A stretch of 64,000 bases of DNA from Ensifer oleiphilus (GTDB lineage Bacteria > Pseudomonadota > Alphaproteobacteria > Rhizobiales > Rhizobiaceae), in contig NZ_JABWDU010000003.1 of the NCBI RefSeq assembly GCF_013371465.1, positions 558,001-622,000 on the forward strand, read 5' to 3'. The stretch's first letter is position 1. Each line of letters starts with the position of its first letter. Positions 2,875 to 52,544 of the stretch are shown piece after piece. Below the pieces are notes generated by a model that saw only the letters and a list, made by a program, of their open reading frames with translations, was not told the DNA's origin and searched no databases. The position numbers were made by a program, and so were the translations under genes.

Positions 2875-4208
2875 CCACGAGCGCCAACCACTCGCTGAAG
2901 AAGCGGCTGATCTGGCATATCCTGACATTTCAGGTGCTTTTGCTCGTGGCCGTCATTGCCGGTTTCATGGCCCTTTTGATCAGGGCCGATCTCGGCGGCA
3001 TGATCCTCGACGCCGGTTCGGCATCGATCGCCGCCAGCGCCGTCGAGGTTGGCCCGGACCAGAAGCTGAAACTGAAAGACACGCCCGAACTGCGCGCCAT
3101 GCACGCCGAGACGCCGGGCTTCTGGTTCGTCGTGCGCAACGAGCGCGGCGAGACGGTCCAAAGCGGACCGGTGCCCGACGCCTATCGCAGCATCGGCGAA
3201 CATCTCGACCGCGTGACATTTGCCGATATCCGGGACGGTATGGCGCCTTACATGCTCTCGGCCATCGCCCGGGTGGTTCAGACCGAGAGCGGTACGTATA
3301 CAGTCCTGACGGGCGGTGGACGCCTGTGGAGCGCCTCGTTCGCCGTGTTCTTCCTGACGAACCTGCTGCTGCTGCCGATCGTTCTGATCCTAGTTCTCAT
3401 CCCTGCCTTCGCCATTCCGATCATCGTGCGCCGTGCCTTTGCGAGCCTTGCCGAGGTCGCCGACCATGCCAGAAGCATCGATGTCGACCGTCGCGGCGCC
3501 CGCCTGCCCGACGGTCGCGTCCCCGGCGAAGTGCGCCCGCTCGTCGAAGCGGTCAACGGCGCACTGCAGCGCCTGGACGAAGGTTACGAACGACGCCAGC
3601 GCTTCATCATGGCTGCCGCCCACGAGCTTAGAACACCGGTCGCAATTCTGCAGACGCGTCTTGAGGGCATGGACTTCGGCCCGCTGCGCAGCCGCCTGCT
3701 GGTTGACACCGCCCGTATTGCCGGGCTTGCAGAACAATTGCTCGACCTTGAGCGCATCGATCGCGACAGCGCTCACTTCGCCCCAATCGACCTGGTCTCG
3801 CTCTGCCGGGATGTGGCGGCCGACCTCGCACCTCTCGCACTGTCGGCCGGCTGCGACATCTCCTTTACGCACGGCCCCGAACAGGTCCGTGCGCGCGGAG
3901 ACGCGGGCGCCCTGGAGCGTGCCGTCACCAATCTGGTGCGCAACGCGATCGAGCATGCGGGCGGCCTGATTTCCATTCACGTCGAACGTGGCGGCATCAT
4001 CGAGGTGAGCGACGCAGGTCCCGGCATTCCCGAAAGCGAGCGGGAACGGATCTTCGAGCCATTTCACCGGCTGCAACCGCGCGACCACGGTGCGGGACTT
4101 GGGCTGCATCTCGTCAGCGAGATCGTCAGCCGCCACAAGGGGCACATATCGGTGGTCTGCGCGCAGACTGGCGGTGCCTGCTTCCGGATGACCCTTCCTG
4201 CGGCGTGA
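2871..4208 (+). CDS. Sensor histidine kinase, partner of the upstream regulator
   Basis: This 445-residue inner-membrane kinase starts at GTG 2871, overlapping the regulator stop. Transmembrane segments lie at about 14-36 and 155-187 and enclose a ~120-residue periplasmic sensor region. A HAMP-like linker follows, then the phosphorylated His251 in AAAHELRTPVAIL. The ATP-binding domain has the N box NLVRNAIEHA, the G1 box DAGPGIP and the G2 box GAGLGLHLV, and is complete. All residues needed for autophosphorylation and transfer to Asp51 of the partner are present. The sensor region has no recognisable ligand fold, so the stimulus cannot be named. Confidence 0.9.
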   Translation: MTTSANHSLKKRLIWHILTFQVLLLVAVIAGFMALLIRADLGGMILDAGSASIAASAVEVGPDQKLKLKDTPELRAMHAETPGFWFVVRNERGETVQSGPVPDAYRSIGEHLDRVTFADIRDGMAPYMLSAIARVVQTESGTYTVLTGGGRLWSASFAVFFLTNLLLLPIVLILVLIPAFAIPIIVRRAFASLAEVADHARSIDVDRRGARLPDGRVPGEVRPLVEAVNGALQRLDEGYERRQRFIMAAAHELRTPVAILQTRLEGMDFGPLRSRLLVDTARIAGLAEQLLDLERIDRDSAHFAPIDLVSLCRDVAADLAPLALSAGCDISFTHGPEQVRARGDAGALERAVTNLVRNAIEHAGGLISIHVERGGIIEVSDAGPGIPESERERIFEPFHRLQPRDHGAGLGLHLVSEIVSRHKGHISVVCAQTGGACFRMTLPAA

Positions 4209-38602: not shown

Positions 38603-38658
38603 TATATCTCATTCCCACTGCCACTACCAGATGGCACGGATAGCCGATGGAGAAGAAT

Positions 38659-39567
38659 ATGACGCTTAGGGGCAAAATTGCGCTGGTTGCAGGTGCCACC
38701 CGCGGCGGCGGACGCGGCATCGCCGCCGAACTCGGAGCGGCGGGCGCGAGGGTCTATGTCACCGGTCGCACCACGAGAAGCCAGCAATCGGACTACAAGC
38801 GTCCCGAAACGATCGAGGAGACGGCGGAACTCGTCAGCGCGCTTGGCGGCGAAGGTATTGCCGTGCAGGTCGACCACCTGCAATCTCGAGAGGTGAAGGC
38901 ACTCATCGACCGCATCCGCCGGGAACAGGGCCGGCTCGATATTCTCGTCAACGATATCTGGGGCGGCGAAAACCTTTTCGAATGGAACAAGCCGGTATGG
39001 GATCATGACCTCGACAACGGTTTGAAGCTGCTTCGCCTGGCAATCGACACGCATCTGATCACCGCCCATCACGCCCTGCCGCTGATGATAGAGCATAACG
39101 GCGGGCTGCTGGTCGAGGTCACGGACGGGACAGCCGAATACAATGCCGAGCACTACCGGCTCTCGCCGTTCTACGATCTCGCCAAGGTCGCGGCCAATCG
39201 CATGGCCTGGGCACATGCGAAGGATTTGGCGCCGCACGGCGCCACGGCCATATCGATTACGCCCGGCTGGATGCGATCGGAGATGATGTTGGAGCATTTC
39301 CAGGTAACGGAAGAAACCTGGCGGGAAGCAACGAAGCTCCAGCCGCATTTCGTCATTTCCGAAAGTCCGCGCTTCGTCGGCCGCGCCATAGCCGCACTTG
39401 CCGCTGACCCACAGAGAGCCCGATGGAACGGACAATCGCTGTCGAGCGGCAGCCTCGCCCAGGCATACGGCTTCACCGATCTCGACGGCTCGCGCCCCGA
39501 TTGCTGGCGCTACATGCGCGAGGTGATGGAATTGGACAAACCCGCTGATGCTGAAGGATATCGCTGA
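38659..39567 (+). CDS. Short-chain dehydrogenase/reductase
   Basis: This ~302-residue SDR has the cofactor motif ALVAGATRGGGRGIA, an ILVND segment in place of NNAG, and an intact catalytic YxxxK in FYDLAKVAANRMAWA. PGWMRSE follows the active site. GGAGAAGAAT precedes ATG 38659; an ATG four codons upstream is also possible. It is larger than classical members because of a C-terminal extension (DGSRPDCWRYMREVMELD). Probably under control of the divergent TetR regulator. Substrate unknown. Confidence 0.85.
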   Translation: MTLRGKIALVAGATRGGGRGIAAELGAAGARVYVTGRTTRSQQSDYKRPETIEETAELVSALGGEGIAVQVDHLQSREVKALIDRIRREQGRLDILVNDIWGGENLFEWNKPVWDHDLDNGLKLLRLAIDTHLITAHHALPLMIEHNGGLLVEVTDGTAEYNAEHYRLSPFYDLAKVAANRMAWAHAKDLAPHGATAISITPGWMRSEMMLEHFQVTEETWREATKLQPHFVISESPRFVGRAIAALAADPQRARWNGQSLSSGSLAQAYGFTDLDGSRPDCWRYMREVMELDKPADAEGYR

Positions 39568-39603: not shown

Positions 39604-42600
39604 TCAGATCGCCAACGTCTGCACCGCGCCATCGCCGAACTCGCAATCGAGTTCCCACCCGGTTTCGCCCCGGCGGACACGCAGGAACATCGCCCCGTCC
39701 CCGGGTGCGGGGCGCGTTGCATTGACGGCGCAGCGATAGGTCCTGCCGCCCGACCGGACTTCGATCGTTTCGCTTTCGACGATTTCCTCGTCGAGGCCAT
39801 TGGCGAACGGATAGGGCGCGAACATCGCCGCCGTATGGATCGAGTGAACACGGGTGACGGAACCATCCTCGTCCAAAAGATCAACCGTCGCGACGCAAGC
39901 CCGGCGTTCGTTTCCCGAGAGAAACACAACATGCTCGATCCGGTTCTCGGCGATATAACCAAGCACCTCGCCAAGCGTGTTGGGATAGCCGTCCCATCCG
40001 TCGGAATGCAACGCGGACAAGTTCGTCCAAGAAAGGCTTCGATCGCGCTGGGTAGCGCGCCGATGCCGCGGCAGCAACATCGCAGGAGACACGACGAACT
40101 TCGGTCCGGGGGCCAGCAACAGCCATTGCTTCAAGCTGTCCATCATCGCCGGCGCGAACATCGCGGCCACCTTCAGACCATCACCCACTTTTCGGTGGGT
40201 TCGCTGGGTACGCGTGTCGAGCATGAAGAAATGGAATCCGTCGAAATCGAACATATCGAGCTTGGAATGTTTGCCGCGTTGATACCTCCGGTAGGCTTCG
40301 ATGCCGCGCATCGCAGTGCCGGCATTGTCATCGTCATCCGGATCGGAGACCGGCTCCCAATGGTCGTCGATCTCCTGGTCGTCGAGCAGCATGAAGGACG
40401 GGATCTGTCGCAAGACGTCGCGCACGCTGCCCTGGGTCAGCCAGGCTTCATAGGGCAGACGGTAACGATCATCCCGTGTGGTCGGATCATAGAGCCCTGC
40501 CGTCGGATCGACATGGATCTGGCCACCGACGAAAAGCGCAAAGCGCGGCTTGATGCCGGAACGGGCTTCCAGCCGTTCGGCAATACGACCATAACCTCGG
40601 TAGGCGACCGCCTCATCGAGAAAACCGACCGGATACTGGCAGGAGGAGAGCGTGAAATTGGTTCCGTTCGGCGTCGGTTCCAGGGGCGGAAATGCCGGTG
40701 GAACATAGGGGACGATGCCGTCCCTCAGGTCGAAATCCTGTTCAACAACGGGCGAGCGCGCCGACTGAATGAAGCCCTGGCGCCCCGCGCTCGGCGATGG
40801 CAAGGCGAGCGCGCGCTCCACGGCCGCGGCCATTTTCTCAAAACGACTGTAGGCGAACGCGACCGCCTGCGCGCTCGCGGCATTGCTGGCACCAGTCGGA
40901 TCGAACCGCCGCATCCGTCTTTGCCCTGTATCGGCAATGAAGTAACCATAGGCCGGCCCCAGGGCGGCAGGACCAGGCACGACGCGTTCGAGCGGTGACG
41001 GCGGCTCTTCGTGCTCGAGCTCCGGTGCGGCCAAGGCCGCATCCTCGTCATAGGCCAGCAGAACCAGAAGGGCATCGCCCCGATCGGCAGTTCCATGGCC
41101 GGGCATGCGGGCCGGCAAAGGAACTTCGAACGCATCCCACCCATCGTCCTCAAGCGCCTTCGAGGCATAGGCCACCAGATGTTCCAGGAGATAGCCCGTG
41201 TCCCAAGGCTGTGTCGGATCATCCGGCCGACAGATACGATCACCGACCACCCGGATCCGCAGGAGCAATGCGGCTTCGGTCACCCGGTGCGAGGGCGCAG
41301 AACCGAGGCGGATGACCAGCGCCGGGGTCTTCGGGCGCTCTTCGGTAATGATCGGACCGATCCAGGGCGGATAGACCACTTTTTCACTGTCGGCCTTGAC
41401 GGCGCCCGCCGGTATGTCTGCGTCGAGAAACTGCTGGATCCGTTGCAAGGTCGCGTGCCGGGTGGTTCCGACCAGCGCATCCTGATGGCCCGCACCCGGA
41501 ATGACAAAGGGAGGCATATAGAGCCGGCCGGCGTCGCCAAAAATCTCCCGCATGCGATCGACGGTCGAGACATGTGACAGCCCGTTTTCTCCCCCATGCA
41601 CGCTGAAGGTCGGAAACGACCAGTGCTTTGACAGGGTCTGGCGCGAGACCAGACCGTTGCGCCCACGAAAATCCGTCATCGTCGAGGAACGCACGAAATG
41701 CAGGCGAGACGACACCGTCGACAGGCTCGACGGACCGAAATGTTCGTCGATATAGCGCAGCGTTTCAGGCTCCATGTTGCGCACATCGAAATGGCGACCG
41801 CAGAGCGCGTCCATACGATGCCGTGTGCGCGTCCAGGGTGTGCGCTTCGCTGGCCACAGCGGGTTCTCGACGTCGAACTCCTCGACCGGATAAGGCAGCG
41901 ACGAAAGCAAACGATCGAGCAGATCGTCTACAAGGGTCGGCTCCCTCGGGTCGAAACTGTAGGTGTCCGGCAGGAAATCGATGAGGTAGCGCACCACATA
42001 GCCACGAAAGATGTTGGCCGGCGCAAAAACCACCAGCGGCCCGACCTGCGTGAAGGCGGCGCGGTTGACGAGCCCGGTCGCATGGCCGTTCAAAACGGCA
42101 ATGCTGAAGACGACGGCTCCCATGCAATGGGCGATAACGTCGACCGTCCCGTCCGGCGACGTTGCCGCCACGGCCTTCAGTGCTGCAGGTACGTCTACAT
42201 TGCCGATCTGGTCGAAGCTCCACGCCTCTGTCGCCGTCGGTTGGCCGGCGCTGGTTCTCAGATCGGCGATCCATATGTCACGACCGGTACACCAGAAATG
42301 GCTGGCGAAATTGGGATTGACTGCGTGATGCGCAAAGGTCGTGCCGCTGGCGCCATAGCCGTGGAACATGATGAGCGGGCGCTTCTTGCTGTTGGGATGC
42401 CGGTATCGCGTCAGCCGCACCTCGCCGGACACATCGCTGCCTCCGCCATCCGGCCGTTCCGGCGCAAGCGCGATGCGATGCAGCTCAGCGGTAATCGACG
42501 CGCCGCCCGGGAGCTTCAGCGTCGTCGGCGGCAGGCGGTTGACGGTCGCCTGTCGCGGCCGCTTGTCCCGATCGGGAGCACGAAAGCTCCAGAGATGCAG

Positions 42601-45261
42601 ACCAAGCAGAAGCCGCGTAGCGAAGCCGAGGAACGTCAGCAGTTCACCGATGGTGTTGACGCCGTCGCGTTGACTGACGACCCGGAACAACGGCACGCCG
42701 ATCCGCGCGAGATAGCCGACGTCGAGTTTCAGCACGCGCTCGCCGCTGCCGGGGCTCAAGCCCGGAAACGTGTCGAGCGTCATCTCCATAAGCTGGCGCC
42801 AGGGATTGCAGCGCCGCTCATAGGTAAAGGTCTTGACGCCGACGATACGGTTGCCCGCGAGCGCGATCTTGCCGCCGACGTCCTGCGGTCCAATTGTCAG
42901 ATCATAGCCGAGGGTTCTGATTTCGCCGGCGTGGCTGGCGATCGCAAAAGCCGATTTGAGCCGCGACCAGAGGCCGGGCCCGTCATCTCCATCGGCAAGT
43001 GCCTGGTAGCCGTCCCGAAGCCCCCGGTTCAGCAACCAGGCCCTGCCCGCGCGCCACACGCGTCCAGGCATCGAGCTCTGCTGTCGCTCGAGGATCCGCA
43101 TGCTGCCGAAGATCGGTGCGCTGAATTCGGCGGCGGCATCGAGCCTTCGCTCCTTCACATGCAAGGGCAGCCAGGTCGTCTCCAGCGTTTCCCAGACGTC
43201 CCGAGGAAAAATCCGGATCTGGCTTCGGGTAGCGCGATCCGGCACTTCGGTTGCGACACGAATGATCGGGTGACCGCCATTGCCCTGCGTCAACTGCAAA
43301 AGCGAAGTAGGCGTAAAGCGCATGGTCAGCTCGACGATCCGGGTTTCCTCGACCCCGCCCACCGGCGTCAAGCTGATGGGGCCGACAAGCCTTTCTATGA
43401 TTTCCACCTCGCTCGACTGCGCCCGCGCGGCGGCGTCGGTGTTGCGAAAGACGGGCCGCACCAGCGGGGCGCCGATGGAACGGACTTCGGCCGCGACATA
43501 ATTCCATTCCTCGGCCAGCGCTTCCGCCGCGCGCAGCGCAATCGCGGCAATCGTCAGGGCCGGGTTTGTCGCAAGGGCGGTCGGAACGATCGACCCGTCG
43601 AGCACGACGAGATCGTCATGCACCGCGTCGGAATCCGCCGATGTGAAGACGCGGCCAAGGTGATCGACCACACCGTCTGCGCCGGTGTCGGCCATCGCAC
43701 AGCCGCCAAGCGGATGGAAAGTCGCCAGCGGGCCACGCTGATCTTTCAGCAACCAGGTCAGGTCGGCCGGCAACAGCTTCCAGACCGGATTGGGAATGAG
43801 CCGGCCGCCGGTGTCTTTCGTCAGCGCGGCGAGCGCCTCGACCTGCCTGTCGAAAATGGGCAGGCTTTGCAGCTTGTCCCAGCGGATCCGCGCAATGCCA
43901 TCCCGATCGACCGCATTTGGGTCGCCGTCAAGCTCGATCCGGCCCGCTGCGCCGTCATAGGCCATAACGGCGTAAAGTGCCGAACGACCGATGCGCGCGG
44001 CCGGCACTGCGTAGGGATCGTCATTCGGAAACCCCGGCCGGTGCCGCGTGCCATCATGCCTGGCAAGGCCGTGCAGCGTATTGAGGGTGGCAAAAACCTC
44101 GGCGAAGGCAATGCGCAGAGCGGCCGGCACCGACATCTCCTCGATCATCACCCCCTTCGAGGCACGAAGGTCGATCACCCCGGTCGTCGTCGGCCCGATG
44201 GCCCTGGCCGACGGTTTGATCGTTTCGTTGGCGACGGTGTTGACATCGGCTGCGGTCGCATAGTCGGCAACCAGCATGTCGCCATTGGTCGAGCATCCCC
44301 GGCCGAGGTTCCTGTCCGCCAGCTGCAAGCCTGCGCCGCGAGAGCGCATGAGGATTTCGCTCGATCCGAGTGTACCGGCGGCGAGCACGACCTTGCGGGC
44401 TCTTATCGCCACCGGGTCGGCGTCGCGCTTGCGGAGCTTCGCATTGGTGTGGACGCCCCTGACGAGCCACCCGGCATCTCCATCCCTGGCCAGGCTGAGG
44501 ACCGTTGCGCCGCTGAAAATTTCGGCGCCGTACTCGTTGGCGCTCACCAGCAGATTGACGTCGAGGGAGTTCTTTGCGCCGCCATTGCAGCCGGTCGCGC
44601 AATCACCACAGCGCAGGCACTTGTTCAGGCGGACATTGCCGGAGTTGGTGGTGTCGCTCATCGCGACCGTGATCGAAGCCGGTCTGAAAGTGCCGTCCGG
44701 CGCGATGGCGCGCATCGACCTAAACTTTTGCGGCACGCCATCGACATGGTTGGCAATTGTGTTTGGAGCGCCCATGATGGTACTGCCGAGCAGATCGCGG
44801 GCGCGATCGAAATAGGATTTCCAGACCGAGAGATCGTTGAGGGCGGCCGGCCAGCCCTTGTGAAATACGCTCGGCAGCGGCGTTTCCATGACCCCGGCAT
44901 TGATCAGCGATCCCCCGCCGATCCCGTTGGCGACGACCGCAACGACCTCAGCACCTCTCCTGATATCGATCAGGCCCTCCTTGTTGTTGTCACCACGAAT
45001 ATGGCGCGGCAATTCGCCGAGCCCTGTCGGAAAGGAGCCCGGCAAATATTCGCGGCCGCGCTCCAGAACGCCGACCGAGATCGGCCTGCCCTCATGCGTA
45101 CGCCCGGCAAAAGTCGAAGCGGCAATGGCGCCGCCGTAACCGCTGCCGATGATCAGGACATCGAAATGCACGGAGGCTGGGGCTTTGCGGACGCGATCGA
45201 CCAGTCGCTCGAAACCCTGCGAGATCCAGGCCGTTTTGGATTCCGTGTCGAGGTCGCTCAT
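39604..45261 (-). CDS. Three-part fusion: GMC/cholesterol-oxidase-like, alpha/beta hydrolase, PhoD-like
   Basis: One uninterrupted frame of 1885 residues. Residues ~30-590 are a cholesterol-oxidase-like GMC flavoprotein: FAD motif LIIGSGYGGAIAA (36-48), Cys215/218/221/225 in CLRCGDCATGC, GMC His516 in HPLGGCAMA, and NPALTIAAIALRAAE. Residues ~600-900 are a linker without a recognised domain. Residues ~945-1280 are an alpha/beta hydrolase (MFHGYGASGTTFA, nucleophile elbow AHCMGA with Cys1046 instead of Ser, His1259 in GAGHQD). Residues ~1530-1800 resemble PhoD phosphatases, but with changed metal sites (VGGQIHVD, LLDDQEIDDHW, SGNERRA). No signal peptide is evident. A steroid or lipid substrate is plausible. 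The long opposite-strand frame is a shadow. No partner gene is adjacent. Confidence 0.8.
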   Translation of the reverse strand: MSDLDTESKTAWISQGFERLVDRVRKAPASVHFDVLIIGSGYGGAIAASTFAGRTHEGRPISVGVLERGREYLPGSFPTGLGELPRHIRGDNNKEGLIDIRRGAEVVAVVANGIGGGSLINAGVMETPLPSVFHKGWPAALNDLSVWKSYFDRARDLLGSTIMGAPNTIANHVDGVPQKFRSMRAIAPDGTFRPASITVAMSDTTNSGNVRLNKCLRCGDCATGCNGGAKNSLDVNLLVSANEYGAEIFSGATVLSLARDGDAGWLVRGVHTNAKLRKRDADPVAIRARKVVLAAGTLGSSEILMRSRGAGLQLADRNLGRGCSTNGDMLVADYATAADVNTVANETIKPSARAIGPTTTGVIDLRASKGVMIEEMSVPAALRIAFAEVFATLNTLHGLARHDGTRHRPGFPNDDPYAVPAARIGRSALYAVMAYDGAAGRIELDGDPNAVDRDGIARIRWDKLQSLPIFDRQVEALAALTKDTGGRLIPNPVWKLLPADLTWLLKDQRGPLATFHPLGGCAMADTGADGVVDHLGRVFTSADSDAVHDDLVVLDGSIVPTALATNPALTIAAIALRAAEALAEEWNYVAAEVRSIGAPLVRPVFRNTDAAARAQSSEVEIIERLVGPISLTPVGGVEETRIVELTMRFTPTSLLQLTQGNGGHPIIRVATEVPDRATRSQIRIFPRDVWETLETTWLPLHVKERRLDAAAEFSAPIFGSMRILERQQSSMPGRVWRAGRAWLLNRGLRDGYQALADGDDGPGLWSRLKSAFAIASHAGEIRTLGYDLTIGPQDVGGKIALAGNRIVGVKTFTYERRCNPWRQLMEMTLDTFPGLSPGSGERVLKLDVGYLARIGVPLFRVVSQRDGVNTIGELLTFLGFATRLLLGLHLWSFRAPDRDKRPRQATVNRLPPTTLKLPGGASITAELHRIALAPERPDGGGSDVSGEVRLTRYRHPNSKKRPLIMFHGYGASGTTFAHHAVNPNFASHFWCTGRDIWIADLRTSAGQPTATEAWSFDQIGNVDVPAALKAVAATSPDGTVDVIAHCMGAVVFSIAVLNGHATGLVNRAAFTQVGPLVVFAPANIFRGYVVRYLIDFLPDTYSFDPREPTLVDDLLDRLLSSLPYPVEEFDVENPLWPAKRTPWTRTRHRMDALCGRHFDVRNMEPETLRYIDEHFGPSSLSTVSSRLHFVRSSTMTDFRGRNGLVSRQTLSKHWSFPTFSVHGGENGLSHVSTVDRMREIFGDAGRLYMPPFVIPGAGHQDALVGTTRHATLQRIQQFLDADIPAGAVKADSEKVVYPPWIGPIITEERPKTPALVIRLGSAPSHRVTEAALLLRIRVVGDRICRPDDPTQPWDTGYLLEHLVAYASKALEDDGWDAFEVPLPARMPGHGTADRGDALLVLLAYDEDAALAAPELEHEEPPSPLERVVPGPAALGPAYGYFIADTGQRRMRRFDPTGASNAASAQAVAFAYSRFEKMAAAVERALALPSPSAGRQGFIQSARSPVVEQDFDLRDGIVPYVPPAFPPLEPTPNGTNFTLSSCQYPVGFLDEAVAYRGYGRIAERLEARSGIKPRFALFVGGQIHVDPTAGLYDPTTRDDRYRLPYEAWLTQGSVRDVLRQIPSFMLLDDQEIDDHWEPVSDPDDDDNAGTAMRGIEAYRRYQRGKHSKLDMFDFDGFHFFMLDTRTQRTHRKVGDGLKVAAMFAPAMMDSLKQWLLLAPGPKFVVSPAMLLPRHRRATQRDRSLSWTNLSALHSDGWDGYPNTLGEVLGYIAENRIEHVVFLSGNERRACVATVDLLDEDGSVTRVHSIHTAAMFAPYPFANGLDEEIVESETIEVRSGGRTYRCAVNATRPAPGDGAMFLRVRRGETGWELDCEFGDGAVQTLAI

Positions 45262-45866
45262 GCCAGCCCCCGCACCGAACCATCGCGATGCGCGAGGGTG
45301 GTACAGCGCCTCGCATCATCGACGGACGACCCATTTCGTTTGACAACTTGCGATGTGCCGTTACCGATGTCGCCTGTCTGCACAGTGTTCTCCATCAGAT
45401 TTGCCGCCGCCATCAATCGCGGTCGCCTTCCCTCAGGTCGTTCCATGCCTGCAAGATATGCTCGCACCGTCTCCAGGCTCGAGGGCAACAGATGCGAGAT
45501 TAACTTTAGGTTGCGCTCAAGCGCAAAGCATAGCGTCGGGCTTTCCGACCCGTACCCTGATTTTCACTGAAGCCGAGAGACCCCTCTTAGCGCCGCGCGA
45601 ATTATATGCGAAAGTCCGCAAATACGTCAGAGGGGAGCCACTAATCCAGAAGTAGTACTCTTCTCGGCCGGATGCATGCCGCCGATGGCAACGACCCATC
45701 GGCCGTCACGTTTCGAGCCGCGGCGTTGTTCTCGGCGGGACAACGACTGACCGGCAAAAGGCCACCTCCAGAGCGCCGCGATCCAGCGCCGTTTCGATGG
45801 ACGGTCTTGAACCAGCCCCTCGCCTCCTGTAGTGCGGGTCCTCATTGATTTTGGATTGGGACAATC
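45262..45866. other. 605 bases without a recognisable gene
   Basis: Short open frames on both strands here lack domains and ribosome binding sites. The left part must hold the promoter of the giant minus-strand gene, and the right part that of the small plus-strand gene. I see no repeat, riboswitch motif or strong hairpin. Confidence 0.4.
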
Positions 45867-46118
45867 GTGTCGAGAGATCGTTATTCGAGAAAACTGGAAT
45901 GTGCCAAATGCGGTGCGTCCGGCTTTGCAGAGGCCTCGGAGAACGACGATCCGAAGAGCAGGACCCGTGGCTTTCTCATCGACCAGATGCCAGTGGGCTT
46001 TTCGACAGAGCGCCCGTCGAGCGATCCCGCGAAACACATGATACGGTGCCGCTGCGGCAATATCTTCGCGTTCAAGCAGAGGACGGTCTACGCGCCGAGC
46101 GGAGAGCCGCGCAACTGA
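45867..46118 (+). CDS. Small protein with CxxC and CxC cysteines, possible zinc ribbon
   Basis: The 83-residue frame starts at GTG 45867. Cys12 and Cys15 (LECAKCGASGF) and Cys61 and Cys63 (IRCRCGNIFAF) could bind one zinc ion in a ribbon-like fold, each pair followed by a glycine turn and an aromatic residue, as in zinc ribbons. The ribosome binding site is weak (TTGGGAC). I do not recognise the family. The regular cysteine placement is the main reason to accept it as a gene. Confidence 0.55.
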   Translation: MSRDRYSRKLECAKCGASGFAEASENDDPKSRTRGFLIDQMPVGFSTERPSSDPAKHMIRCRCGNIFAFKQRTVYAPSGEPRN

Positions 46119-46938: not shown

Positions 46939-47973
46939 TCAGTGCCCAGGCGCTTCGTCGTCGGTGTCCGCAGCATCAACGGCGCGATCATGCACCGCTC
47001 TCCAGGCGAGAACCTTTGCAAGATGTTTGTCATCACCACTCAGACGAGCGAGGTGCTCCTGTTGCCTCAGCGCCACCCGCACCGTCGCGCGGGCAAACCG
47101 GTCATTCGGGCCGGCAAAATCCTGCAGCCGGGCGTCGCAAGCTAGTGCGGCGAGCAGATCGGTCTTGATCGCCACGGTCGAGGCATTGCCGAAGCGCTGC
47201 AGCAGTGCCTGGAACCGCTCATGCAGATGCGCATCGAAAGCCCTCTCCTCGCCCATCGGGCCGACGACAGGATTGCCGGGATGCAGGCTGCCGAGCGGCA
47301 TCAGGCCCGCGGGGATCGGTGTGTTGGCGGAATGGGTGCGGCCGCTGCGCAAGACTTGCGGCAGTACGTGCGTGTGCGGGCCGGATGGAGACACACCTCC
47401 TGTGTCCGGTCCGCCGATCTTCTGGAAAACCTCGACGCGGCCGATGGCGGTGACGGCAACGCGATGGGGATGGGCCTTCAAGATGGCCGGCATTGCCGGA
47501 TTGTCGGGCTCGAACAGCGAGCGTCCGACACACCGCCTCAAAACCTCAAGCAGCTCGACGTCCTCGGTGCGAATGCAGAAGTCGCATTGCGGCAGCGAAA
47601 GCCCCATGTCGAAGAGGATGGCGCCGCGATCGCCGGAGCGAATAGCCGCTTCGTCAGGCCCAAGGTCAGTCAGGTGCGCACGCGCCTTCCGCCGCGCATC
47701 GCCTTCGGGCAGACACAGGGCGACCGCATGGCTCCAGCGGTGCGCTCTCGGGCTCAGCGCTTCGTAGGCGACCGGCACGATCTCGGTCAAACGGGCAGGG
47801 TCGATCCACACGCCGCCACGCTCCGTCGCCCGGCATAATACAGCCGGCGCATCGACAACGAGCGCTTCGCCGGCATCCTGGTGGAACTCGGCGATGGCGC
47901 CAAACGTCCCCATGCTCCACCCGGCTTCCGGGTCTTTCAGATGCGTACTGAGCATGTCGGCCAACTCGGTCAT
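46939..47973 (-). CDS. Conserved unknown protein, fifth gene of the B12 uptake operon
   Basis: The 344-residue product has no signal peptide or membrane segment. It contains RTEDVELLEVLRRCVG in the middle and a histidine-rich stretch toward the C-terminus (GPHTHVLPQVL, RTHSANTPIP, LGSLHPGNP, AFDAHLHERF). ATG 47973 overlaps the stop of the ATPase gene (ATGA, 47970-47973), so it is co-translated with the transporter and under the same riboswitch. The long frame upstream of 47973 is a shadow of the ATPase gene. I do not recognise an enzyme family. A role in handling cobalamin or its metal is suggested only by position. Confidence 0.7.
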   Translation of the reverse strand: MTELADMLSTHLKDPEAGWSMGTFGAIAEFHQDAGEALVVDAPAVLCRATERGGVWIDPARLTEIVPVAYEALSPRAHRWSHAVALCLPEGDARRKARAHLTDLGPDEAAIRSGDRGAILFDMGLSLPQCDFCIRTEDVELLEVLRRCVGRSLFEPDNPAMPAILKAHPHRVAVTAIGRVEVFQKIGGPDTGGVSPSGPHTHVLPQVLRSGRTHSANTPIPAGLMPLGSLHPGNPVVGPMGEERAFDAHLHERFQALLQRFGNASTVAIKTDLLAALACDARLQDFAGPNDRFARATVRVALRQQEHLARLSGDDKHLAKVLAWRAVHDRAVDAADTDDEAPGH

Positions 47974-48782
47974 GCGGTGCTGTCCCTTGAAATCCCTTGT
48001 TCGATACCGGTCTGCGCAAGGCGCGTCGGCTGCACGATCAGTCCTCCCGCCACATCCGCCACATAGGCTTCGATGCCATAGACGCGCCGCAGCAGGTCTG
48101 CGGTCAGCAGCTCTGCAGGCGCGCCGTCGGCGACGATGCGGCCGCTTTCGAGAAGCACCAGCCGATCGCACCAACGCGCCGCCAGGCCGAGATCGTGCAT
48201 CGAGGCGACGACCGAAGTACCCTGCCGTGTCAGGTCACGGAACACCTGCATCAGCGCGATCTGATGCGCCGGATCGAGGCCCGCGACCGGCTCGTCGGCC
48301 AGAAGCAGGTCAGCCTGTTGCGCCAAGGCTCTTGCAATCAGCACGCGCGCCTTTTCGCCGCCGGAAAGATCGGTCGCCCGACGCGATCGCAACTTGCCGA
48401 TGTCCATGCGCTGGAGCGCCGCTTCGACGGCTTCGTGGTCGGCGATCGCCGACCGCGCAAATGCGCCACGATGCGGCTGCCGGCCGAGATCGACCAACAC
48501 TTCGACCGTGATCGGCCAGGCGATATCCCGGTCCTGCGCGACATAGGCAATGTGGAGCGCAAGCTCGGCCGGCGCCATGCGCCGCAGATCGGTGCCGCCC
48601 AGGAGAATTTCGCCGCTTGACGGGATGAGACCAAGGCAGGCGCGCAGAAGCGTCGATTTGCCGGCACCGTTCGGACCGATAAGGCCGACGAATTCACCCG
48701 GGCTGACACTGATCGCGATGTCCTTCAGCACCGGGTTGCCACCAAGCGAGGCGCTGAGGTTGGAAACGGCAAGCCGGCTCAT
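47970..48782 (-). CDS. btuD: Cobalamin ABC transporter ATP-binding protein
   Basis: The 270-residue ATPase is of the BtuD/FepC type: Walker [16 protein letters not shown]-loop VAQDRDIAW, signature LSGGEKARVLIARAL, Walker B LLLADEPVAGLD and switch His in SMHDLGLA. It overlaps the permease and the unknown gene by four bases each. Its assignment to B12 rather than siderophore uptake rests on the riboswitch heading the operon. The symbol is by analogy. Confidence 0.85.
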   Translation of the reverse strand: MSRLAVSNLSASLGGNPVLKDIAISVSPGEFVGLIGPNGAGKSTLLRACLGLIPSSGEILLGGTDLRRMAPAELALHIAYVAQDRDIAWPITVEVLVDLGRQPHRGAFARSAIADHEAVEAALQRMDIGKLRSRRATDLSGGEKARVLIARALAQQADLLLADEPVAGLDPAHQIALMQVFRDLTRQGTSVVASMHDLGLAARWCDRLVLLESGRIVADGAPAELLTADLLRRVYGIEAYVADVAGGLIVQPTRLAQTGIEQGISRDSTA

Positions 48783-49783
48783 GCTATCTGCCTCCGTGCA
48801 CGCATCACGATGACGAGAAAGAACGGCGCGCCCACGACCGCCGTCAGCACACCGAGCTTGAGATCGCGCCCGGGGGCAACGACCCGAACGAGGATGTCGG
48901 CGGCAAGCAGCAATGCCGCCCCGCCAAGCGCGCTGGCAAATAGCAACCGGGAGGGCCGAGCGCCGACGAGCGGGCGCAGCAGATGCGGAACGACGAGGCC
49001 GACGAAACCGATCGCTCCGGCAACAGCGGTTGCGGCACCGACCGAGGCGGCCGTGCCGATGACCGCAAGCCTCTGGACCCTTTTCATGTCGACCCCCATG
49101 CTCGCCGCCGTCTCGTGGCCGAGTGTGAGGGCATCCAGCGCCCGACCGAGACTTGCCAGCATCAGCCAGCCGAACACCATGAAGGGCGCCGCGAGCCAGA
49201 CATGCGTCATCGATCGGTCCGCCAGCGAGCCCAGCATCCAGAACATGATCTCAAGTGCTGCGAACGGATTGGGCGAGAGATTGAGCGCCAGCGAGGTCAT
49301 CGCCCCGGCAAAGGTCGAAACGGCGACGCCAGCGAGGATCACCGAGAGCGGTCGGGCGTCAGCCCCGGCCATCAGCCGGACAACGAGCACCGCGCAGAGT
49401 GCGCCGCCAAGCGCCATCAGCGGCAGCGCAAGCGGCATCAGGGCAGACAGTCCGGTGTAGATCGCGATCACGGCGCCGAGCGATGCCGAGGCGCTGACGC
49501 CGATCAGGCCGGGTTCGGCCAGGGGATTGCGCAGATAGCCCTGGAGTGCAGCACCCGAGAGCCCAAGCGTTGCGCCGATCATCAGCCCGAGGATCGCGCG
49601 CGGCAGGCGGATTTCCCGCATCACCAACCCGATCAGGCTATCGTCTGCAGCGAAAAGACCGGCAAGGCCCTGCCAGGGGCCGACATCTGCAGGTCCGACC
49701 GTCAGCGAAAGGACGAAGAGGGTTGCGACGACAATGGCAAGCACGACGATCAGCAGGCAGTAGCGGGCGGTTTCCGTCATCAT
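48779..49783 (-). CDS. btuC: Cobalamin ABC transporter permease (FecCD/BtuC family)
   Basis: The 334-residue inner-membrane protein has about nine to ten helices and the FecCD motifs RLPRAILGLMIGATLGLSGAA, QGYLRNPLAEPGLIGVS, and FVGLVVPHLLRPLVG before the coupling helix. The last is the cytoplasmic loop that meets the ATPase. It overlaps both neighbours by four bases and forms the channel with BtuD. Confidence 0.87.
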   Translation of the reverse strand: MMTETARYCLLIVVLAIVVATLFVLSLTVGPADVGPWQGLAGLFAADDSLIGLVMREIRLPRAILGLMIGATLGLSGAALQGYLRNPLAEPGLIGVSASASLGAVIAIYTGLSALMPLALPLMALGGALCAVLVVRLMAGADARPLSVILAGVAVSTFAGAMTSLALNLSPNPFAALEIMFWMLGSLADRSMTHVWLAAPFMVFGWLMLASLGRALDALTLGHETAASMGVDMKRVQRLAVIGTAASVGAATAVAGAIGFVGLVVPHLLRPLVGARPSRLLFASALGGAALLLAADILVRVVAPGRDLKLGVLTAVVGAPFFLVIVMRARRQIA

Positions 49784-50631
49784 TTCCCCGTATCGAGTTT
49801 CAAGGCCGCCTGCTGCAGGATGTTTGCGGCGATCAACGTGAATGGCCCGCCGCAGATGGTGTAGCGGCTATCGAGCTGGACGGTCCGTTGTGGCGGAGCG
49901 ACCGCGCGAAAGGCCGGGTGGGCGAAATTCTGCTTGGCAAGCGCCGGACCGCGTTCGCTGCTGGAATCGATGGCGATCAGATCCGGCCGAGCGAGAACCA
50001 ACGCTTCGAGTGACAAGTGCCCGGTGCCGGAGATGCCGAGCTTGCCTGCGAGATTGGCAAGCCCCGCGATGCCGACGATATCGGCAACCAGCGTGCCGCT
50101 GCCGGAGGTGAAGCCATTGGCATAATATAGCGCAAGATCGAGCTCCGGCAGCTTGATCTCATTCAACCGCGCTATCTCGGCATCCATCGCCCCCACCAGT
50201 TCGTCCGCGCGCTGCTGCCGGCCGAGAAGCTTGCCCATGCGCTGAAGGTTGGCGCGAACCTCGGCGATCGAGGCCTCAGGGGCAAGTTCCTCGACGGCAA
50301 AGCCGAGCCGTTTCAACAGGTCAACGGTCGTGCGCGTCGTATAGGTGCCGGCAATCACCAGGTCCGGCTTCATCAGGAAGATCTCTTCGGCCAGCCCGTG
50401 ATTGACGACATAGGATGTCGCCTCGGCGGCAAGCGCCGAGGTCGAGCCGTCGGTGGCCAGATAGGAAACCGAATAAAGCTGGCCCTTGCCGGCGACCAGC
50501 ATGGCCATCTGGTCGGTGCAGACATTCATCGAGACGACGCGACGCGGCGTTCCGTCCGCCGACGCGCCATGGGGCAAGGCTGCCCAAAGCACCCCCGCAA
50601 CCAGATATCGCCTGCACCAACCGGATGTCAT
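49780..50631 (-). CDS. btuF: Periplasmic cobalamin-binding protein
   Basis: The 283-residue precursor has a signal peptide (cut near HGASA) and a class III (helical-backbone) binding-protein fold: RRVVSMNVCTDQMAMLV at the start, EEIFLMKPDLVIAG, and ALVLARPDLIAID. It delivers substrate to BtuCD. It begins within the btuB stop codon (TGATG). The cobalamin assignment comes from the operon riboswitch and the BtuB-like receptor; a siderophore binder of the same fold cannot be excluded by sequence alone. Confidence 0.82.
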   Translation of the reverse strand: MTSGWCRRYLVAGVLWAALPHGASADGTPRRVVSMNVCTDQMAMLVAGKGQLYSVSYLATDGSTSALAAEATSYVVNHGLAEEIFLMKPDLVIAGTYTTRTTVDLLKRLGFAVEELAPEASIAEVRANLQRMGKLLGRQQRADELVGAMDAEIARLNEIKLPELDLALYYANGFTSGSGTLVADIVGIAGLANLAGKLGISGTGHLSLEALVLARPDLIAIDSSSERGPALAKQNFAHPAFRAVAPPQRTVQLDSRYTICGGPFTLIAANILQQAALKLDTGK

Positions 50632-52544
50632 CAGAACGAGGCCTTCAAGCCGGCAAAGGCGGCAACACCTTGCGTGTTGTAGCCGTAGATCTCCTCATAA
50701 TCTTCATCGAAAAGGTTGTCGACGCGGCCGAAGATCTCGAAAGTGTCGTTGACCTTGAAGCTGCCGCCGACATTGACCAGCGTATAGGCACCGAGCGGCA
50801 CCCGCTCCGGGCCTGGCCGATAGGCCACATCCTGCATGCGGCCGTTGAGGATGACTTCACCGAAGACCCTGATACGGTCGTCGTAAAAGACGTAAGCCGC
50901 GTCGAGCGACGCCGCGTGGCGCGGACGGCGGACTTCCTGCAGGCGGGGTCCGCCGGCAAGCGTCTGCTCGGTCGAAGCGGTGTAGGTATAGGTCGCCGTC
51001 GTCGTCAGCCCGTTGAAGAAATCGACGGTCGCCGACACCTCGATCCCGTGACGCAGGCTTTCGCCCGAGCGATTGACCGGCGTCGACCGGAAGCTGGGAT
51101 CGTAGACCGTAGCAATCTCATTCTCCAGATTCTGATCGAAATAGGTCACGTCGACGGTCAGGCCGCCGTCGAAGAAACGCTGCTCGACACCGATGTCCCA
51201 ACCGAGACTTTCTTCCGGCTTCAGGTAAGGGTTGCCGATGAAAGTTCCCGGGATATAGCCGAACTGCTCGTAAAAGGTCGGGTTGGTCACGCCGGTACCG
51301 ACGGACGCGTGCAGCCGGGTTTCGCTGCCCGGTACTTCCCAGGAGCCGCTGAGGCTCCATGTGGTGGCATCCTCGAAGCGATCGTTGAAATCGCGCCTGA
51401 TGCCGGCATTGACGAAGAACTGGTCGGCAAACTCGCCGCGATACTCGCCGACGAGCGAGTGCGCATTGCGGCTGAAGGTCTGTTGCAGGTGCGACGGCGT
51501 AAACGTCTCGCGCTGCCATTCGTAGCCACTGGTGATCTGGTGGCGGATACCGTCGCCGCCATCGAAGCCGTAACTTGCCTGATAGCTGGCGTTGTAGCGG
51601 TTGCCGTCGTTCCAGGACCGTCCGAACCCGCTGATGTTGTCGCGATGCATGCCGAGGCTCGAAACACGCGCCTTTTGCGTAAAATCGCCGTCGAGCGCCG
51701 AATGGGTGAGGCCGAGCGAACCCGAAAGCTCGCGCGACCGGGTGTAGTCCAGCGTGTCGTAGGTCAGCGCAGTCATGTAGTCCTGCGCGTCGAGGTCAGT
51801 CTTGCGGTTGACGGCGCGCAACGTCGCGTCCAGTTGCAGATCGGGCGAGAGGTCAAAGCTGAACTTGCCGTTAACGGTGCCGTTGCGGTCACCGTCGTCC
51901 TCGGACCCGGTGTCGGAAATGTTGAAACCGCCGGTTCTCTGGAAGACGCCGGACAGCGCGTAGTCATAGCCCTCGCCGCCACCTCGGGTGGAGACACCGC
52001 CGAGCCAGGTGCCGTCGCTGCCAACTTCGGTGCGGGCGCTCGACTTGGCGCTGTCCCGGCTTCCCTTCCTGGTGATGATGTTGATGACGCCGGCCATGGC
52101 ATTGGCACCCCAGAAGGTGCTTTGCGGCCCGCGCAGGATTTCGATGCGCTCGATGTCGTCGGAAACGAGGCCGCCGAAGTCGAACTCCCCTTGCGAAACG
52201 TCGTTCGCCTCGACGCCATCGATCACGACCAGCACCTGGTTGCCCTCGGCGCCACGGACCCGGACCTGCGTCAGACCGCCGGACGCGCCGGTGCGCGACA
52301 CGGAGAAACCCGGCACCAGGCGCAGGGCGTCGGCGACATAGCGGATCTGGTTCTTCTCGATCTCATCTCCGGTAATCACCGTGAAGGCGCGTCCCGATTT
52401 GCGCTGTTCCGTCGGCGTCAGGCCATCGGAGACCAGGATCTTCTCAAGCTTGGTCGGTTGTTCGTTTGCGGTTCGATCCTGTGCCTGTGCCCCGCCCACG
52501 AGGATCAGAACCAGCGCCGCTGCGCCAGTCAATTGCTTCGTCAT
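50631..52544 (-). CDS. btuB: TonB-dependent cobalamin receptor
   Basis: The 637-residue outer-membrane receptor has a signal peptide (cut after AQA), a TonB-box-like EKILVSDG, a plug domain (RYVADALRLVPGFSV, VRVRGAEGNQVLVVIDGVE, RIEILRGPQSTFWGANAMAGVINIIT) and a 22-strand-type barrel ending in GLKASF with terminal Phe. Length and plug match BtuB. A cobalamin riboswitch lies about 170 bases upstream, as is usual for btuB. It is the first gene of the five-gene operon. Confidence 0.9.
   Translation of the reverse strand: MTKQLTGAAALVLILVGGAQAQDRTANEQPTKLEKILVSDGLTPTEQRKSGRAFTVITGDEIEKNQIRYVADALRLVPGFSVSRTGASGGLTQVRVRGAEGNQVLVVIDGVEANDVSQGEFDFGGLVSDDIERIEILRGPQSTFWGANAMAGVINIITRKGSRDSAKSSARTEVGSDGTWLGGVSTRGGGEGYDYALSGVFQRTGGFNISDTGSEDDGDRNGTVNGKFSFDLSPDLQLDATLRAVNRKTDLDAQDYMTALTYDTLDYTRSRELSGSLGLTHSALDGDFTQKARVSSLGMHRDNISGFGRSWNDGNRYNASYQASYGFDGGDGIRHQITSGYEWQRETFTPSHLQQTFSRNAHSLVGEYRGEFADQFFVNAGIRRDFNDRFEDATTWSLSGSWEVPGSETRLHASVGTGVTNPTFYEQFGYIPGTFIGNPYLKPEESLGWDIGVEQRFFDGGLTVDVTYFDQNLENEIATVYDPSFRSTPVNRSGESLRHGIEVSATVDFFNGLTTTATYTYTASTEQTLAGGPRLQEVRRPRHAASLDAAYVFYDDRIRVFGEVILNGRMQDVAYRPGPERVPLGAYTLVNVGGSFKVNDTFEIFGRVDNLFDEDYEEIYGYNTQGVAAFAGLKASF

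Follow-up and report, generated by a model that had tools for sequence, protein, structure and literature searches.

A 64,000-nt stretch of Ensifer oleiphilus DNA (the window), part of a 1.12-Mb contig in a genome of 6.76 Mb, encodes on its minus strand a single 1885-residue protein (positions 39604-45261) in which a GMC oxidoreductase domain, a domain named LNK here, an alpha/beta hydrolase (ABH) domain and a PhoD-like domain are fused. The fusion, its conservation in other genomes, its split forms, its residue changes and the deletion of a neighbouring gene are observed directly. The protein is interpreted as a cytoplasmic multi-step lipid-ester-processing enzyme which arose by the fusion of four neighbouring genes and whose third activity, that of the PhoD part, is dead in the window lineage. 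The probability of this interpretation is put at about one half.

The fusion gene and its split forms

The gene is a single stop-free frame read from 45261 to 39604; on the plus strand the frame of the same interval is interrupted by stops. A congener carries a full-length protein that is 92% identical, and a single open frame runs through all parts in 10 of the 61 genomes searched, its own included. Among the 16 genomes of the genus the fusion is intact in nine, split over two frames of 399 and 1669 aa in one (G015; genomes are given as G numbers and loci as L numbers) and reduced to fragments of the PhoD part in two (G001 and G002), with nothing comparable in the remaining four. Searching a draw of 394 genomes from the family with the PhoD part gave nine with a match and added two single-frame fusions, G531 (1923 aa) and G473 (2019 aa), which brings the intact fusion to 12 genomes, the window's own and 11 others. 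The same search yielded G480, whose PhoD part has its own frame. In a class-wide draw only two of 289 genomes matched, its own and G153. Those relatives with the gene that carry a name belong to Ensifer or Sinorhizobium: four genome contigs and, from a plasmid collection, seven Ensifer plasmid records with one place covering at least 80% of the protein.

That the long frame might be an artefact of sequencing or assembly uniting separate genes had been raised by an earlier reading made from the window alone (the sequence-only reading), and separate genes do exist at L040 and L041. As 11 other genomes carry the fusion in one open frame, and the flanks are kept in the nearest relatives, this explanation is rejected and its probability is close to nil. 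A second frame of 1290 aa (41698-45570, plus strand) lies antisense to the fusion gene and probably reflects the codon use of a GC-rich genome.

The separate and half-fused arrangements contain the same parts. In G480 (L040), of the same family, a 1369-aa GMC-LNK-ABH frame is followed after 7 nt by a 567-aa PhoD frame (both measured stop to stop), and in G153 (L041), an alphaproteobacterium from outside the order, four open reading frames (ORFs) on the same strand encode PhoD, LNK, GMC and ABH, in that order. The plus-strand ORF run of G1016 (L077) consists of ABH, an acetoacetate-decarboxylase-like protein, a patatin-LNK fusion (L077:9797-11338), GMC and a PF00149-type protein that scores 0.1 bits below the cut-off; the patatin-LNK gene thus adjoins the decarboxylase-like gene and stands with separate ABH and GMC genes. 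PF00149 metallophosphoesterases, all 0.1-4.9 bits below the cut-off, adjoin the GMC/LNK/ABH set in Azospirillum, G060 and G1016. Those of Azospirillum (L021:10038-11852) and G060 (L044:3-2240) share 34% identity and are placed as PhoD is elsewhere. The Azospirillum protein is not supported as a PhoD orthologue, as it matches PF00149 only (2 bits below the cut-off) and gave no blastp match with PhoD queries.

Proteins of about 1150 aa with the first three parts in the same order, and without a PhoD match in the stretch that was fetched, were found on plasmids of Rhizobium leguminosarum, Azospirillum, Leptospira, Bernardetia, Persicobacter and Variovorax and in the genomes G060, G818, G795, G1018 and G994, and so reach as far as Leptospira and the Bacteroidota. 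Matches are sparse, with nine of 398 genomes in a phylum draw (LNK plus ABH profile) and eight of 297 in an order draw (LNK profile), its own included in both. The window fusion is therefore a single branch within a broader family of patchy occurrence. The four-part order that the sequence-only reading had proposed to survey among homologues is real; the core without PhoD is more widespread and already listed in databases, under the names 'alpha/beta fold hydrolase' and 'GMC oxidoreductase' (e.g. WP_063474201.1 and WP_149201188.1). These proteins lack the PhoD tail and have database names only; no described function was found for them in narrow literature searches. Likewise, a few narrow term searches of the open-access literature returned no described enzyme with the four-part domain order, in agreement with the earlier remark that a phosphatase-like third part is not known from a described enzyme. 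A paper on a single R. leguminosarum GMC gene (PMC7105596) plays no part in the comparison.

Domains and candidate active-site residues

The order of the parts was confirmed with Pfam, where matches to GMC_oxred_N (residues 102-307, E = 6e-11) and GMC_oxred_C (512-575, E = 5e-11) are followed by Abhydrolase_1 (962-1052, E = 2e-5, 1.1 bits below the cut-off) and PhoD (1594-1794, E = 3e-11, 43.4 bits, above the gathering score of 27). No signal peptide was evident by visual inspection. The sequence-only reading was thus right about the single intact frame, the order of GMC, hydrolase and PhoD-like parts, the CxxCxxCxxxC cluster (residues 215-225) and the likeness to cholesterol oxidase; its 'unrecognised linker' of about 300 residues is rather a conserved domain which elsewhere has its own gene. 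The features are as follows.

39604..45261, minus strand: the entire gene of 1885 aa, with GMC, barrel (LNK), Cys alpha/beta hydrolase and PhoD-like parts; an open frame, open at full length in 11 other genomes
43492..45174, minus strand: GMC oxidoreductase domain, residues ~30-590 (Pfam/NCBIfam; cholesterol oxidase PDB profile match; motifs 20/20)
44587..44619, minus strand: four-cysteine loop C215-C218-C221-C225, predicted Fe-S site (invariant; comparison with BcGDH)
42430..43491, minus strand: LNK domain, residues 591-944, probable beta-barrel (separate ORF in L041; patatin-fused in L077; L041 copy modelled)
41407..42429, minus strand: acid-lipase-type alpha/beta hydrolase domain, residues 945-1285 (gastric lipase profile match; Foldseek)
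42124..42126, minus strand: nucleophile candidate Cys1046, aligned with gastric lipase Ser153 (Cys in 20/20 and 16/17)
41584..41586, minus strand: Asn1226, aligned with gastric lipase catalytic Asp324 (Asn in 20/20 and 17/17)
41485..41487, minus strand: His1259, aligned with gastric lipase catalytic His353 (His in 20/20 and 17/17)
40972..41394, minus strand: region ahead of the PhoD core, residues ~1290-1430, possible PhoD N-terminal domain (conserved among fused Ensifer-type proteins)
39607..40659, minus strand: PhoD-like core (residues ~1535-1885), whose metal site has degenerated in the window strain (Pfam PhoD 3e-11; residue comparison)
40513..40524, minus strand: residues 1580-1583, GQIH; D207 equivalent is G, Y210 equivalent (by position) is H
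40360..40383, minus strand: residues 1627-1634, DDQEIDDH; D265 and D266 retained, N272 equivalent is H (alignments and residue comparison)
39904..39912, minus strand: residues 1784-1786, NER; D436 equivalent is N, H438 equivalent (by position) is R
45663..45731, plus strand: 69-bp remnant, the 5' coding end of a divergent cyclase-like gene, ending at the joint 45731/45732 (blastn to L016 9479-9411)

The hydrolase domain is closest to the gastric and lysosomal acid lipases (1hlg, 1k8q, 6v7n). A profile of 17 hydrolases matched gastric lipase (1hlg) nearly over its full length (E = 7e-20, positions 11-329 of 332), and a Foldseek search with a model of residues 590-1290 gave dog gastric, human lysosomal acid and human gastric lipase as the top matches (best 1k8q, E = 2.5e-12). 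The triad of gastric lipase is Ser153-Asp324-His353 (PMC1636056). In the corresponding columns, which were located by manual count in the printed profile alignment (chain index plus 8), the fusion protein has Cys, Asn and His. All three are invariant among 20 GMC-LNK-ABH proteins, and the Cys and Asn are conserved across phyla. The homology to acid lipases is therefore full-length and the Ser-Asp-His triad is replaced; unlike these lipases, the domain is part of a fused bacterial protein in which no signal peptide is evident. On this alignment Cys-His-Asn would be the working catalytic set. A narrow search of the open-access literature found no paper pairing Cys-His-Asn with an alpha/beta hydrolase. 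The single exception at the nucleophile among the 17 aligned hydrolases, the protein at L076:8306-9475, belongs to the same family with Gly in place of Cys and is possibly an inactive paralogue.

As the nearest relatives by profile and fold include the lysosomal acid (cholesteryl ester) lipase, the hydrolase fits lipid-ester processing, as had been suggested for the protein earlier. A different substrate class would apply if the Cys hydrolase were an acyltransferase like polyhydroxyalkanoate (PHA) synthase or depolymerase and the GMC domain acted on hydroxyacyl units, i.e. if the protein belonged to polyester metabolism. PHA synthase also has a Cys nucleophile and has itself been modelled on gastric lipase (PMC1636056); the hydrolase profile weakly matches structures of PHA synthase and PhaZ7 (about 4e-4 to 6e-3), the L077 hydrolase weakly matches TIGR01836 (27.6 bits against a cut-off of 365.3), and phaC/phaE, coenzyme A-transferase and iron alcohol dehydrogenase genes lie near the R. 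leguminosarum GMC-LNK-ABH gene (L020:4288-11821). The acid-lipase match (7e-20) is, however, far stronger, the acid site is Asn rather than Asp, and pha genes were found neither in the other annotated loci nor among the ten window neighbours scanned. The window protein also has no PhaC match and lacks the Cys-Asp-His set of the PHA synthases, and a role in polyester metabolism is rather unlikely.

The LNK domain (residues 590-945) aligns by position with a shorter region in proteins of other phyla, which starts with FTE-x-M-x-G and bears a W-x-D-T-T-T-L-Y-like stretch. Pfam gives no match to LNK, whether within the window protein or as a protein of its own. The compact L041 copy was modelled with high confidence (predicted local distance difference test (pLDDT) score 91.7, predicted template modelling (pTM) score 0.87) as antiparallel strands with a C-terminal helix, which we read as a barrel from the predicted strand pattern rather than from coordinates. 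The model of window residues 590-1290 has a pLDDT of 77.5, with the LNK strands at mixed confidence, and LNK identity to the L041 copy is 21% for the window, 17% for L042 and 15% for L040; a beta-barrel is probable for the window domain. At E up to 0.001, nothing in the PDB or among viral models matched the L041 model in structure (the weak rows are MppR, lipocalin-type prostaglandin D synthase and nitrobindin), and the LNK profile had no match to PDB sequences below 0.028. The fold is therefore left unnamed, and the barrel is the only domain here for which no known superfamily was found.

The N-terminal part belongs to the GMC superfamily, with a motif for flavin adenine dinucleotide (FAD), GSGYGG, at residues 39-44, the candidate catalytic pair H516 and N566, and Pfam N- and C-terminal models above the cut-off; the motifs are kept in all 20 proteins aligned. 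The best profile match in the PDB is cholesterol oxidase (1b8s/1b4v, E = 1.6e-57), with which it shares the GMC fold, the FAD motif, the His of HPLGGC and the Asn of NP. Cholesterol oxidase is a single domain and lacks the four-cysteine loop in the profile alignment, and the window protein scores far below the cut-off of the NCBIfam cholesterol oxidase equivalog NF058674 (143.3 against 850 bits). It is followed by the Fe-S enzyme FAD-glucose dehydrogenase (BcGDH, 6a2u, E = 6e-18), in which a 3Fe-4S cluster is bound by Cys212, 218 and 222 (PMC6719666). The four cysteines of the fusion protein, invariant in 20/20 and, in a second alignment, 17/17 proteins, lie in the same part of the chain and suggest a resemblance to Fe-S GMC dehydrogenases. 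The spacing differs, CC-x4-C-x3-C in BcGDH and CxxCxxCxxxC here (a likeness drawn without residue-by-residue alignment), and BcGDH works with further subunits.

Decay of the PhoD site and loss of the cyclase-like neighbour

About 130 residues separate the hydrolase from the PhoD-homologous region as delimited here; those at ~1290-1430 are possibly a PhoD N-terminal domain, since by eye they resemble the N-terminal part of the PhoD that L041 encodes as a separate protein. Eight metal-site residues (C180, D207, Y210, D265, D266, N272, D436 and H438 in Bacillus subtilis PhoD) were mapped by manual count via HMMER alignments and the family alignment. Y210 we take, by position, to be the unnumbered tyrosine Fe ligand, and H438 presumably is a further ligand. 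All eight are kept in 12 of 15 PhoD parts, which suggests that the ancestral module probably worked. PMC4223295 reports that the activity of B. subtilis PhoD (2yeq) is abolished by changing C180, D265, N271, N272 or D436 and drops strongly for D207 and D266. Like that enzyme and the Streptomyces chromofuscus phospholipase D, the window part matches Pfam PhoD and keeps the Cys of the Cys-type Fe-ligand subfamily (C1541); it differs in being fused, in having no signal peptide by eye and in retaining only three of the eight residues, with D207G, Y210H, N272H, D436N and H438R. The PhoD activity is thus probably dead in the window strain. G003 has lost one of the residues (D207) and G004 three (D207, N272 and D436), and these two form one clade with the window genome, G000 (support 99/100). 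A third module that is non-catalytic and serves binding, as the sequence-only reading had it, is hence not supported as a general description; the non-catalytic look is limited to the window's clade.

In relatives, a gene of about 1340 aa with cyclase and AAA_16 matches lies divergently beside the fusion. We take it to be soluble-adenylyl-cyclase-like. The orthologues have the cyclase domain, AAA_16, an Asp pair, a Lys and an NxAAR motif, and these residues are kept in 9/9 aligned proteins including the distant one from Leptospira, the only relative in which tetratricopeptide repeats are clear. The gene is not the NCBIfam equivalog TOMM_kin_cyc (144 against a cut-off of 706). Across 14 loci in which PhoD is part of the hydrolase protein or abuts it as a frame of its own, the gene is complete in nine (G005, G006, G010, G011, G012, G030, G531, G473 and, to the end of the fetched stretch, G480), broken in two (G014, two frames; G015, fragments) and reduced to scraps in three (G000, G003 and G004), whose genomes elsewhere hold only paralogues of 24-30% identity. 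Fragments also occur in G002 and, at the limit, in G001. The Leptospira cyclase near the GMC-ABH gene has about 24-26% identity. Each of the 16 Ensifer genomes searched has paralogues at 24-31%, so this cyclase may be just another generic paralogue and is not counted as support.

In the window only the 69-bp remnant is left. The block which follows it jumps to L016 5517, past the end of the cyclase gene. The cyclase-like gene was thus removed by a deletion which, measured against L016, spans about 3.9 kb (scar region 45663-46114). G004 is collinear with the window at the scar, while G003 retains other pieces (nt 8-92, 3768-3820 and 3905-4040), and the deletions therefore look independent. As D207G is common to all three genomes and the deletions differ, the decay of PhoD seems to precede the final loss of the cyclase.

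The link to the cyclase suggests possible regulation by a cyclic nucleotide. PhoD itself could have been an off-switch for the cyclase next to it, as a cyclic-nucleotide phosphodiesterase or in another way, making the fusion a signalling-controlled enzyme. The complete cyclase-like gene in 9/14 PhoD-bearing loci, with its residues kept, and the loss of the PhoD site only in the three genomes with cyclase scraps are consistent with such a role. Those three, however, form one clade and amount to a single observation. D207G, which they share, appears to predate the two differing deletions, and G014 and G015 combine a broken cyclase with a complete set of PhoD residues. L041 has PhoD with no cyclase match in the stretch fetched, and the PhoD enzymes named in PMC4223295 are thought to act on teichoic acid and phospholipid. 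An off-switch is, on balance, improbable.

Selection on the gene was estimated as omega by Nei-Gojobori pairwise arithmetic. For the whole gene, the three pairs from the window clade give 0.178-0.188, eight pairs within other clades 0.10-0.14 and three pairs taken across clades 0.13-0.22. In the window clade purifying selection still acts on the entire protein, and the values fit a constraint that is relaxed but persists. A decaying remnant without remaining function would explain the five lost PhoD residues, the deleted partner gene, an omega above that of the other clades, most so in the hydrolase (0.16-0.26 against 0.04-0.09), the change of 64/738 otherwise invariant sites against 22/696 in clade B, the broken frame of G015 and the mere fragments in G001 and G002. 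Against this, the frame is intact over 5.7 kb, omega is still 0.18-0.19, all GMC and hydrolase motifs checked are retained, and the PhoD-core omega (0.16-0.20) overlaps that of the other clades (0.10-0.17). Clade C, with a longer stem, has changed 72/746 invariant sites, so that this count by itself does not set the window clade apart. Complete loss of function is considered unlikely.

The window also has a convergent short-chain dehydrogenase gene (38647-39567), which is present at five relatives' loci as well (L016-L019 and L024). The gene of a DUF6925 protein (46939-48174) has a pentapeptide-repeat gene on one side and, on the other, an uptake cluster of the ABC/FecCD/TonB-receptor kind (47970-52544).

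Proposed activity and its implications

The chemistry we infer from the enzyme families, and the step order and substrate class are likewise inferred. In the proposed lipid-ester-processing enzyme the barrel domain would hold a hydrophobic substrate, and the acid-lipase-type hydrolase, with Cys-His-Asn replacing Ser-His-Asp, would break or transfer an ester or thioester bond via an acyl-cysteine. The GMC domain may then oxidise the freed alcohol, with electrons passing from FAD to a putative Fe-S cluster in the four-cysteine loop and on to a further acceptor, not mainly oxygen. The ancestral PhoD module would have cleaved a phosphoester or phosphodiester, of this substrate or of a head-group, and so removed the phosphate or head-group; in most relatives the divergent cyclase-like ATPase would have belonged with these activities as one unit. 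The window strain probably lacks a working PhoD step, and its cyclase-like gene is deleted. The lipid context is provided by the acid-lipase homology and by the fusion of LNK to a patatin phospholipase in L077.

Several points weigh against this proposal. The roles of Cys1046 and Asn1226 depend on the alignment to gastric lipase, and the four cysteines are suggestive, and no proof, of an Fe-S cluster. At 21% identity to the compact barrel that was modelled, the window LNK is a probable barrel. N271, essential in B. subtilis PhoD, is Asp in 14/15 homologues, a difference common to the family as a whole. PhoD is not nearby in most GMC-LNK-ABH proteins found outside the Rhizobiaceae, which makes the PhoD step an add-on, and the PHA synthase genes near the R. 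leguminosarum homologue point to another substrate class.

A bolder version, which we regard as doubtful, is an undescribed class of lipid enzyme in which an Fe-S GMC dehydrogenase, a barrel of an undescribed family and a papain-like Cys-His-Asn hydrolase are joined in the Rhizobiaceae to PhoD and governed by the cyclase, PhoD and cyclase having been lost together as one regulatory circuit.

What is new here is the four-part fusion, the change of the triad and the decayed PhoD; all domains but the barrel come from known superfamilies. The occurrence of the same parts as a fusion, half fused or as neighbouring genes links separately annotated enzyme families into one functional unit, and the linked parts give a concrete set of proteins for a substrate search. 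An acid-lipase scaffold with Cys-Asn-His departs from the textbook triad in a way that can be tested, and the series of orthologues with an intact, half-lost or lost PhoD site offers natural controls for the role of the third module.

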